Assembly (NCBI GenBank): GCA_002256985.1 | Contig: NCGO01000011.1 | Coordinates: forward strand, 1-64,000 | Direction: 5' to 3' | Length of the DNA: 64,000 nt | Source of the DNA: Novosphingobium sp. 28-62-57 | GTDB taxonomy: Bacteria > Pseudomonadota > Alphaproteobacteria > Sphingomonadales > Sphingomonadaceae | Shown here: in pieces, positions 45,125 to 47,733 of the stretch | Layout: every line of letters begins with the position of its first letter | How positions within the stretch are numbered: position 1 is the stretch's first letter | Program-made: the position numbers and the translations under genes | Notes under the pieces: model-generated | Database searches by the model: none | Told to the model about the DNA's origin: nothing | What the model saw: the letters and a program-made list of their open reading frames with translations, nothing else

Positions 45125-45508
45125 TTAGGGCTGGCGCGTTCCGGCGAAGGGGGCATCTTCGAACACGCGTTCCACTTCCATAACCAGATCCTTCAGATGG
45201 AACGGCTTGGACAGGACGCGCGCCTGCGGTGCTTCGCGATTCGCTTTCAGGGTTACGGCGGCAAAGCCGGTAATGAACATGACCTTCGTGGCGGGGCTGA
45301 TTTCGGCGCAGCGCTGCGCGAGTTCGATGCCGTCCATTTCGGGCATGACAATGTCGGACAGCAGCAGATCGAACTGCTCGGCTTCGAGCAAGGGGATGGC
45401 CGCCGTGCCGCGATCCACCGCAACCACGGAAAATCCGGCATTTTCTAATGCACGGGTCAGATAGGTGCGCATCGCCTCTTCATCTTCGGCGAGCAGGATT
45501 CGGATCAT
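45125..45508 (-). CDS. cpdR: CpdR-like single-domain response regulator
   Basis: 127 aa from ATG 45508; the frame is open further upstream but MIRILLAEDEEAMRTYLTRA is the natural start. Receiver only: acidic Glu8/Asp9, phospho-acceptor Asp52 in LLLSDIVMPEMDG, Thr in MFITGFA and Lys in VLSKPFHLKDL. In Caulobacter CpdR, when unphosphorylated, directs ClpXP to the pole to degrade cell-cycle regulators such as PdeA and helps CtrA turnover; the phosphate comes from CckA-ChpT. Single-domain structure and motifs match, but function is inferred. Confidence 0.85.
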   Translation of the reverse strand: MIRILLAEDEEAMRTYLTRALENAGFSVVAVDRGTAAIPLLEAEQFDLLLSDIVMPEMDGIELAQRCAEISPATKVMFITGFAAVTLKANREAPQARVLSKPFHLKDLVMEVERVFEDAPFAGTRQP

Positions 45509-45710
45509 GGCCAACCTGTTTTCTTCAAGAGCTTCGTTCTGGGGCGGGGACGCATGGGATGCGCTGGTTAGACCATACGTTTGGCAGGTTAACAATCTTG
45601 CCTCCAACGCCTGTTGGATTGATCGCAGGGCGCTTGGAAAGTTTTGTTGCAGATACCCCGCCTCAAGACAGGATTTTGACTTGTGGGCGAATCGGTTGCA
45701 CGGTCTGACC

Positions 45711-46673
45711 ATGATACAATCCGGTGAGCATGATGCTGATTCGGGCGCGATCCATGGCGGGTCGGTCCCCGGCAACCCTGAGGTACCGGCATTCACGCTG
45801 AAACTGCCGGACCCTTCGCCGATCCCGGTAGTGATCGCGGTTCCGCATGCTGGGCGAGCCTATACCAAATCGCTGCTCGACCTGATGCGGCATCCAGACT
45901 TTGCCACCCCGCGTTTGGAAGACCGCTATGCCGATCTGCTGGGCAAAGCGGTGGCCAAGGTGACCGGCGCGGCCCTGCTGGTTGCCCATGCGCCGCGTGC
46001 CATGCTCGATCTCAACCGGTCGAGCGATGATGTGGATTGGGACATGCTGGGCGGGCCGCCGGCCGATGCCTCAGCGGCGCCAAGCGGCTTTGGCCGACGC
46101 GCGCGCAGTGGCCTTGGCCTTGTGCCACGGCGCTTGCCCGGCCTTGGCGAGCTGTGGAAGCGGCGGCTGGACCATGGCGAGCTGAACGAGCGGATTGCGG
46201 CAATCCACCAGCCCTATCATCATGCGCTGGCCACCACGCTGGAGACGATTCGCGATCGCTGGGGGGCTGCGCTGCTGATCGATCTCCATTCGATGCCCCC
46301 ACTGGCCGCGCGTGCGCCGGGGGAGCGAGCGCCAGAGTTCGTGATTGGTGACCGGTTTGGTGCTTCATGCGACAGCGGGATCATTGCCTCGGCGTTCAAT
46401 GTGCTGGCGCAATCAGCCTGCAGGACATCCCACAACCGGCCTTATGCGGGTGGCTACGTGCTGGAGCGCCATGCGCGGCGGCATGAAGGCCTGCACTGCC
46501 TTCAGCTTGAGATTGACCGGACGTGTTACCTTGATCCGCGCATGATCGATCCGGGGCCGGGGTTTGATGCCACGGTGGAATTGCTGATCGGTCTGGTCCG
46601 GCGGCTGGCGGTGGATGTGGCCGACCTTGGCCGCACATCTGACCGCGGACGCTGGCGCGCGGCGGCGGAATAG
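45711..46673 (+). CDS. N-formylglutamate amidohydrolase-family protein
   Basis: 320 aa from ATG 45711 (no strong ribosome site; frame open upstream). Family zinc-amidohydrolase motifs: IAVPHAGRAYTKSLLDLM, MLDLNRSSDDVDW, LLIDLHSMPP and NRPYAGGYVLERHARRHEGL. In histidine catabolism HutG-type members release formate from N-formylglutamate, but no hut genes lie here, and many relatives are uncharacterised. Divergent from cpdR. Confidence 0.85.
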   Translation: MIQSGEHDADSGAIHGGSVPGNPEVPAFTLKLPDPSPIPVVIAVPHAGRAYTKSLLDLMRHPDFATPRLEDRYADLLGKAVAKVTGAALLVAHAPRAMLDLNRSSDDVDWDMLGGPPADASAAPSGFGRRARSGLGLVPRRLPGLGELWKRRLDHGELNERIAAIHQPYHHALATTLETIRDRWGAALLIDLHSMPPLAARAPGERAPEFVIGDRFGASCDSGIIASAFNVLAQSACRTSHNRPYAGGYVLERHARRHEGLHCLQLEIDRTCYLDPRMIDPGPGFDATVELLIGLVRRLAVDVADLGRTSDRGRWRAAAE

Positions 46674-46708
46674 CGCGCAACGCGCAGAGTAGCGCATAAC
46701 CCTTCCGC

Positions 46709-46863
46709 ACAAGAAAAAACCACCTGGAGCAAGCTCCAGGTGGCCAAGGTTCAGGGAGGAGGTACACCGAAGTGTACCAAATCACGGTGGGCCATGAGGG
46801 GAGCCACACCGCAACATCTTCAAGATAGGTGACCCACCGAGGGCCTGCAAGGCTTTTCGAGTG
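46709..46863 (-). ncRNA. Candidate small regulatory RNA with anti-Shine-Dalgarno motif
   Basis: Read leftward from about 46860. First a large stem closed by CGGTGGG (about 46838-46832) and CCCACCG (about 46791-46785). Then a 7-bp hairpin GGTACAC-TTCG-GTGTACC (46778-46761) with a UUCG tetraloop. Then the unpaired CCUCCUCCC (46762-46754), a perfect anti-Shine-Dalgarno sequence. Finally a terminator with a perfect 10-bp stem (46743-46734 with 46729-46720) and six U. No ORF fits. This layout, three stems plus CCUCCUCCC, is shared by alphaproteobacterial trans-acting sRNAs (alpha-r14 and CcsR/cuckoo types). The 5' end is approximate. Confidence 0.75.
46714..46743 (-). terminator. Terminator of the candidate sRNA
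   Basis: CCACCTGGAG (46720-46729) with CTCCAGGTGG (46734-46743), 4-nt loop, and a leftward U-run (six A at 46714-46719 on the top strand). No coding gene on this strand ends here, so it implies an RNA gene. Confidence 0.9.
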
Positions 46864-46869
46864 ATTTTT

Positions 46870-46934
46870 GCAACACTCCAAGCAAAAACGCGACGAACCG
46901 TGAGGTCCGCCGCGTTTTCTTTGCTGAGTGTTGC
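46870..46934 (-). terminator. Long hairpin terminator after the SapC gene
   Basis: The arms GCAACACTCCAAGCAAAAACGC (in part, from 46870) and GCGTTTTCTTTGCTGAGTGTTGC (to 46934) pair almost along their whole length with small bulges. Read leftward, GTTTTT provides the U-run. It lies 20 bases after the SapC stop and directly before the sRNA. Confidence 0.75.
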
Positions 46935-46953
46935 GCGTTTGCGAAGTGGCGTG

Positions 46954-47733
46954 TCAGGCGGCCGGAATCGTGATCGCCGGGATCGGGCCTTTGCCCAGTT
47001 GCACTTGCGCGCCGAAGATCTGGCTGATCAGTTCAAGCGAGAACAGATGGGCATAGAGCAGCGGCAAAAGCCCGCTCTGCGCCCAGCCACGCAGCACATC
47101 GCCACGGATTTCGCGCAGCTTTTCCTGATTGATCATCTGGAAACCGCGATAGATGAAGGGCTGCTCGTTGCCTTCCTGCTGGATGGCAACTTCGCCTTCC
47201 ATCAGCAGATCATGCTTCTTGAGTTCATCAATAAAGGCCTGCGTGCGCTGCCCGGCCTGTTCGAACTGTTCGCAGAAGCTGAGCGCGGCCTTGGTGGCAT
47301 CCGAAGGCTGGCCATCGGTGAACAGCGCCTGCCCTTCGTCCGATTCGCCCAGCAGCCCTGAAGAGGGATCGAAGCACAGCGAAAGCTCTTCGCTGCTGGG
47401 ATTGAGCTTGGCCAGCAGGAACGGATAGCGGCGCACATAGGCCGGAATGTAGATCGGCTGGGTGACCTTGCCGCCTTCATCCACGAAGACATTCACGCCT
47501 TCATTCAGGCCCATCAGTGCCAATGGCACCGGGTTTTCGCCCGAGGCAAAGATGATCGGGTAATGGCGGGCGGCCTGCGGAAATTCTTCTGCCGTCAAAG
47601 GGATAGCGTGCTGGCCGACAAGCCAAGGCGCGGCATCCGCATTCTTGGCCTTCCACGTCGCGTGATCGCGACTGTTGAGCGGCATCAGATCGTTGTAGAA
47701 CATCGGCAGGTTGGCTTGCGGCGCGCTGGCCAT
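46954..47733 (-). CDS. SapC family protein
   Basis: 259 aa from ATG 47733 with GGAGAGA 7 nt upstream; the frame extends upstream without a ribosome site. Matches the SapC family pattern: FYNDLMPLNSRDHATWKAK near the start, PIIFASGENPVPLALMGLNE, then LCFDPSSGLLGESDEGQALF. First described near S-layer secretion genes, the family's molecular function is unknown. In sphingomonads it commonly sits near TonB receptor genes; none is here. Monocistronic, with its own terminator. Confidence 0.82.
   Translation of the reverse strand: MASAPQANLPMFYNDLMPLNSRDHATWKAKNADAAPWLVGQHAIPLTAEEFPQAARHYPIIFASGENPVPLALMGLNEGVNVFVDEGGKVTQPIYIPAYVRRYPFLLAKLNPSSEELSLCFDPSSGLLGESDEGQALFTDGQPSDATKAALSFCEQFEQAGQRTQAFIDELKKHDLLMEGEVAIQQEGNEQPFIYRGFQMINQEKLREIRGDVLRGWAQSGLLPLLYAHLFSLELISQIFGAQVQLGKGPIPAITIPAA

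Follow-up and report, generated by a model that had tools for sequence, protein, structure and literature searches.

Small RNAs of the alpha-r8 family, which include SisA to SisD of Caulobacter and MmgR of Sinorhizobium meliloti, lie beside the gene for N-formylglutamate amidohydrolase (FGase) in most species and have the sequence UUUCCUCCCU in common, according to the part of the Caulobacter study available to us (PMC12559287). The same part describes SisA as Hfq-associated and as a repressor of TonB-dependent receptors, acting through this anti-Shine-Dalgarno 10-mer. For MmgR, the accessible section of a review gives three stem-loops and an anti-Shine-Dalgarno motif placed in the first loop (PMC7143759). 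In Sphingopyxis granuli TFA, the 61-nt SuhB sRNA represses translation of thnR together with Hfq, as stated in the excerpt at hand (PMC6563040).

Here we analysed a window of 64,000 nucleotides from Novosphingobium sp. 28-62-57 (contig NCGO01000011.1), in which a small RNA had been predicted from the sequence. We think it very likely that this RNA is encoded by an FGase-linked alpha-r8 gene, orthologous to mmgR of S. meliloti and sisA of Caulobacter, and that it represents a derived sphingomonad form, which probably acts as an anti-Shine-Dalgarno repressor. Among the papers listed in our search of the literature on alpha-r8-type sRNAs, none dealt with the window-type RNA in Novosphingobium; an earlier mention, for instance in the primary alpha-r8 phylogeny, is possible.

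The predicted RNA and its locus

In the region that was read (46000-47600), the minus strand carries, in this order, sapC, a stem with a T-run, a promoter-like pair, hairpin 1, hairpin 2, the seed and the terminator. The features are:

45465..46673, plus strand: FGase gene, convergent neighbour of the sRNA (PF05013, E 5.5e-61)
46714..46815, minus strand: predicted sRNA transcript of about 100 nt, FGase-linked and of alpha-r8 type; 5' end inferred from the promoter
46714..46745, minus strand: Rho-independent terminator with U-run (stem 46745-46718, U-run 46719-46714)
46746..46760, minus strand: motif M2, UCCUCCCUGAACCUU, unpaired in the fold, homologous to the alpha-r8 10-mer; candidate anti-Shine-Dalgarno seed
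46761..46778, minus strand: hairpin 2, 7 bp with a UUCG loop, 100% of cells paired in 37 sequences
46781..46815, minus strand: hairpin 1, the 5' hairpin (predicted fold), outside the 77-position Rfam model
46792..46800, minus strand: motif M1, CCCUCAUGG, forming the hairpin-1 loop; across the 37 sequences of alignment A1 every column is invariant or conserved to at least 90%
46822..46827, minus strand: putative -10 element TATCTT; TA in 34/34 aligned loci, third T in 29/34, last T in 28/34
46845..46850, minus strand: putative -35 element TTGCAG; TTG invariant in 34/34 aligned loci
46884..46919, minus strand: terminator-like 16-pair stem with T-run, after sapC and before the sRNA promoter
46957..47730, minus strand: sapC gene, same-strand neighbour upstream of the sRNA, with an approximate coding start (PF07277, E 6.2e-71)

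The original prediction had claimed a leftward terminator with no coding gene to serve, and this was borne out: stem and U-run can be read, and no coding gene on the minus strand ends there, sapC (47730-46957) stopping about 210 nt upstream. That the terminator serves the convergent FGase gene was rejected, since on the plus strand no T-run follows the stem. The UUCG-capped 7-bp hairpin was found as described (46778-46761), and so was the stretch between the stems, CCUCCUCCC, at 46762-46754, the first two C of which close hairpin 2. The large 5' stem had to be redrawn. Its part from 46863 to 46816 is largely promoter, so that the 5' boundary was wrong, while the first stem stands as 46815-46781; accordingly, the RNA should start near 46815. 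At gathering thresholds, Rfam gave only a tRNA over the whole window.

The trimmed RNA of 105 nt is predicted to fold with -49.9 kcal/mol (z -5.67), and for the 155-nt segment of the original prediction z was -3.93; in both cases none of 200 shuffles equalled the fold. A plain sigma-70 consensus scan yielded no site at the locus, and the promoter claim rests on conservation of the two elements, which are separated by 17 nt in 31 and by 16 nt in 3 of the 34 aligned loci.

The genes for sapC and FGase stand on either side of the sRNA in all 34 same-genus loci, in agreement with the earlier statement that the sRNA is located beside sapC, and both flanks also recur in the best 30 loci (30/30) of an order-wide search with the covariance model R1 described below. 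Three loci with one to three changes in the core (L039, L044 and L045) were excluded from the count of 34 and included in A1. The FGase gene is the synteny of most weight, being the published mark of alpha-r8; sapC is kept too.

With a query of 201 nt, orthologs were found in 35 of the 36 other Novosphingobium genomes, the genome giving no match (G001) being 83% complete. The same query found no match, apart from one chance-like one, in the 24 genomes sampled from the order's other families. A match in G048 (E 0.005; L046) was dropped, as its similarity is confined to a short part of the terminator stem, the core being absent even at six changes allowed. In one same-genus genome (G017) the window-type sRNA is present twice, as diverged copies located on separate contigs (L044 and L045). 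At least 119 stretches of named genomes contain the exact 24-mer CCTCCTCCCTGAACCTTGGCCACC, and its carriers, among the matches listed, belong to Novosphingobium, Sphingomonas, Tsuneonella, Croceibacterium, Qipengyuania and others. In 106 of 119 such loci, CCTCATGG is found at most 62 nt upstream of the core; the 13 others comprise six near variants, six with a C-run loop of Sphingomonas type and one truncated where its stretch ends. The sphingomonad sRNA is also present in a record titled Actinobacteria bacterium 21-64-8 (L097), which is probably mislabelled.

The stretch CCUCCCUGAACCUUG is invariant in the 37 sequences of A1. Half of the scored pairs of the fold (14/28) show changes on both sides, and 96.2% of cells are paired, compared with 87.6% and 7.5 double-change pairs in shuffle controls and with 36-49% and 3-7 pairs in slid controls. 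The outer stem of hairpin 1 is the weakest helix, with double changes in 6/6 pairs but only 83.3% of cells paired. Double changes occur in four of the seven pairs of hairpin 2, and the terminator has 12 pairs with 100% of cells paired, three with double changes and eight that never vary. Further pair types were modestly above the shuffles (38 vs 33.3, a value reached by 4 of 500). The free drift lacking compensatory changes, which the original prediction had named as evidence against a gene, was looked for, and compensatory changes were found in the 14 pairs given above. By these comparative tests the sRNA is a real gene, the transcription of which is predicted.

Probable kinship with the alpha-r8 family

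The Rfam model RF00519 (suhB/mmgR) aligns with the window RNA over its full length at 32.9 bits (E 1.6e-4 in 1.6 kb), below its gathering threshold of 41 bits. Eleven loci of same-genus relatives behave alike: five score 33.8-37.8 bits, six are unlisted at E up to 0.5 and none reaches 41. The original prediction had proposed suhB as one family to compare, and here the kinship holds, while the curated cut-off is not attained; for this reason we do not file the RNA under RF00519 as curated.

We built the covariance model R1 from window-type sequences. It matches the window at 46817-46713 with 97.9 bits, the window sequence being itself part of the R1 alignment. At E up to 1e-3, R1 has matches in 205 of 296 genomes of the order and in 58 of 79 genera. 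The matches in other families are weaker, their best E values lying at about 1e-6 to 1e-3, which is what canonical alpha-r8 should give. Across the class, 14 of 142 genomes were matched at E up to 0.01; 12 of them come from outside the order, the other two being the own genome and a second member of its family. Eight of these 12 matches were fetched, of which six are RF00519 members over the cut-off, one lies below it and one has no match; FGase is present in the locus of two of the eight. Among RF00519 loci taken from seven genomes in the order's other families, six are over the Rfam cut-off and all seven are recovered by R1 (26.9-41.7 bits); five of the seven have FGase within about 1.5 kb on either side. 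Thus the profiles are reciprocal, R1 finding RF00519 members and RF00519 finding window-type loci, the latter below cut-off.

The alignment with canonical alpha-r8 is continuous through hairpin, core and terminator, running through CUCCCUGAAC-UUGGGCCAC, and M2 aligns with the UUUCCUCCCUGAACUUGGGCC-type stretches of canonical FGase-flanked alpha-r8. Eight of the ten positions of the published 10-mer UUUCCUCCCU are retained; UCCUCCCU is identical and unpaired, and the leading UU is replaced by CC, which lies inside hairpin 2. Of 14 canonical alpha-r8 loci that were folded, at least 12, as judged by eye, have a predicted hairpin immediately 5' of the core hairpin. We had considered the 5' hairpin to be an addition of the sphingomonad branch and rejected this, as most canonical loci have one; only the CCCUCAU loop is particular.

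In its arrangement the window RNA resembles SisA of Caulobacter crescentus, which, in the part of the study available, also has an FGase gene beside it, a single-stranded anti-Shine-Dalgarno core and a Rho-independent terminator (PMC12559287). As in Caulobacter, the Novosphingobium genome has several siblings. The published layout, with a hairpin before the core and the terminator after it, is thus found here, but the core reads CCUCCUCCCUGAACCUU instead of UUUCCUCCCU, the hairpin of 7 bp is strong where the same source calls that of the SisA type weak, and the 5' hairpin carries the conserved CCCUCAU loop. With MmgR the comparison is similar: the two-hairpin Rfam model aligns end to end, whereas MmgR has 77 nt and the window RNA about 100 nt, and the score falls short of the MmgR family cut-off as stated above. 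On sequence comparison, the derived form is placed in the Sphingomonas/Novosphingobium/Erythrobacter branch and is marked by the changed core, the stronger second hairpin and the conserved CCCUCAU loop.

Could a separate anti-Shine-Dalgarno family, for instance alpha-r14 or CcsR, have converged on this form and merely resemble alpha-r8? The score below the Rfam cut-off and a conserved 5' hairpin loop of its own, absent from the canonical loci read, would agree with this idea. Alpha-r14 (NfeR1, RF02344) has a CCUCCUCCC-type motif in its model consensus and shows a weak architectural match of 17.4 bits, but this is far under its cut-off of 58.8 bits (E 1.6), so that the suggested assignment to alpha-r14 fails. 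Among the seven Rfam matches with E up to 10 there was no model named CcsR, the third family proposed; anti-hemB and the other matches besides RF00519 were rejected as sub-threshold. Moreover, the published location of alpha-r8 is beside FGase, most of the canonical loci of other families share this neighbour, and their alignment with the window RNA is continuous. Hence we consider an independent origin improbable. A related question is whether the RNA has a gene of its own or is a processed fragment of the sapC mRNA 3'-UTR. The two are on the same strand, with sapC upstream in 34/34 loci, and in a crude scan a stem resembling a sapC terminator was seen in only 13 of the 34, part of these being weak. 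In the window itself, however, a strong stem with a T-run parts sapC from the sRNA, and in all 34 loci a -35/-10 pair with near-fixed spacing directly precedes the conserved block, which makes a sapC fragment very improbable.

The least credible reading, in our opinion hardly worth entertaining, is that a conserved small protein is translated from the AUG in CCCUCAUGG. In same-genus sequences this AUG opens frames of 13 to at least 28 codons, most of which reach the end of the stretch, and frame use is uneven (51, 39 and 17 of 107 named-genome loci). Yet, counted from the invariant block, the AUG is found in each of the three frames, in 18, 9 and 8 of 35 same-genus sequences (two more lack the motif), and therefore no single peptide is conserved; shared descent and hairpin length can account for the uneven use. 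Furthermore, no Shine-Dalgarno sequence precedes the AUG, and in the fold it lies inside a hairpin loop.

We thus return to an FGase-linked alpha-r8 ortholog in a derived form, a reading based on the FGase adjacency together with the R1 matches to canonical alpha-r8. The general claim of the original prediction, an unannotated sRNA of trans-acting type with an exposed anti-Shine-Dalgarno stretch and alphaproteobacterial relatives, is supported as well.

Candidate targets and the hairpin-1 loop

According to the mechanism that we propose, the own promoter would give rise to an RNA of about 100 nt with a 5' hairpin showing CCCUCAU, the 7-bp hairpin, the unpaired 15-nt seed and the terminator. 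Assisted by Hfq, UCCUCCCUGAA may pair with Shine-Dalgarno sequences of the GGGAGGA/CAGGGAGG type, and this pairing would block translation, the probable targets being TonB-dependent receptors and other uptake genes. That the seed pairs with Shine-Dalgarno sequences is expected by analogy with SisA, and from the same analogy we infer repression of ribosome binding. Hfq is encoded in the genome, as are TonB-dependent receptors, with 66 Plug-domain matches. The Hfq locus (G000:C1:670771-671199) has two Hfq domain matches that share a reading frame and were each assigned to an open frame of 199 aa; it apparently encodes a tandem double-domain Hfq.

Receptor start regions were compared with those of background genes in the own genome (66 vs 186) and in a second genome, G005 (81 vs 149), together 147 vs 335. 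Test genes were open reading frames ranked by length times GC contrast, with starts set by pairing with a 16S tail, so that both groups probably contain misplaced starts; some of the called receptor starts look wrong. The hexamer CAGGGA, complement of UCCCUG in the seed and picked after hexamer ranking, was present in 12/147 receptors vs 1/335 background genes (5/66 vs 1/186 in the own genome and 7/81 vs 0/149 in G005). GGGAGG was found at 13 of 66 receptors and 7 of 186 sampled genes in the own genome, where AGGAGG showed no difference (3/66 vs 7/186). In G005, GGGAGG occurred in 6/81 receptors vs 3/149 (p 0.07), and by seed duplex energy the receptors were no different from background (p 0.19). 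The signal is shared by other sequences: in the own genome the SuhB-type core distinguishes receptors from background no less well than the seed (p 6.7e-5 vs 2.3e-4) and the reversed seed does so weakly (p 0.016), and in the pooled sets the 16S tail too pairs better with receptors (p 0.0013). When only the few background genes that bear a signal were taken for comparison, GGGAGG differed weakly (19/147 vs 1/46, p 0.049). An excess of ATGA at receptor starts (36/66 vs 46/186) was set aside, as it is probably confounded by signal peptides starting with MK or MR. Overall, receptor targeting is suggested by the data of the own genome, while those of G005 are mixed.

In the loop CCCUCAUGG and in the seed, conservation exceeds that of the outer stem of hairpin 1. 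The loop is conserved like a pairing site and is a candidate for a second such site. Along a target, the complement of the seed, UUCAGGGAGGA, followed by that of the loop, CCAUGAGGG, would correspond to a Shine-Dalgarno sequence followed by a start codon. A two-point clamp, in which seed and loop grip the Shine-Dalgarno sequence and the AUG of the same mRNA, is nevertheless doubtful. The pattern GGAGG-N3-9-ATGAGGG occurs twice in the own genome, and one of the two sites, a single case, is where a TonB-dependent receptor gene starts (G000:C1:217757; GGGAGGGAAGAATGAGGG). Of 26 genomes searched, 18 have the pattern.

SuhB-type siblings

Elsewhere in the own genome there are at least five RF00519 members over the cut-off (150 of 259 candidates scored). 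The genome-wide search missed the RNA of the window itself (46713-46817; 32.9 bits by cmscan). With 150 of 259 candidates scored, such search counts can miss weak members. The other genomes of the genus have one to seven RF00519 matches each at E up to 1e-4, and in two of them (G004 and G012) one match is of the window type. The core of the siblings differs (UCCUCUCCCAAA), and no FGase match was found near the five in the 6.5-12 kb taken. With R1, four of them score 13-18 bits and the fifth (L003) is unlisted; chance stretches of the window reach 16-18 bits. From their sequences, the siblings look like a distinct sub-branch. By its length, SuhB of Sphingopyxis granuli TFA, as given in the accessible excerpt (PMC6563040), would fit the five siblings (GCCUUUCAGGCAUCCUCUCCCAAAACUU) and not the window RNA.

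About 50 nt before the SuhB-type RNAs of the own genome (L001-L005) and of relatives (L325-L351) we found a signature of TTGCA-type repeats followed by TTTCGCA[C/T]TTGC. It is present in 20 of 29 distinct regions and in none of the 34 FGase-linked loci. The common signature suggests that one regulator may act on all siblings. This is unlike Caulobacter, where the sisA to sisD promoters are unrelated to each other according to the part of the study available (PMC12559287).

Sphingomonads are studied for their ability to break down pollutants. Our analysis links a sub-threshold sphingomonad RNA to a family that, through its members in Caulobacter and rhizobia, has been connected with carbon uptake and storage. 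It is a divergent branch of a known family, with a target class that we infer. A candidate repressor of a receptor class, together with siblings of a different promoter signature, makes catabolite control in sphingomonads directly testable.

Triplets of SuhB-type sRNAs lying close together were observed in two genomes (G007:C3:181904-182831 and G005:C1:2404527-2407929). In another alphaproteobacterial order, a glycine riboswitch (69 bits, with a second just under threshold) is located about 300 nt downstream of an alpha-r8 RNA (L203:1917-2132).
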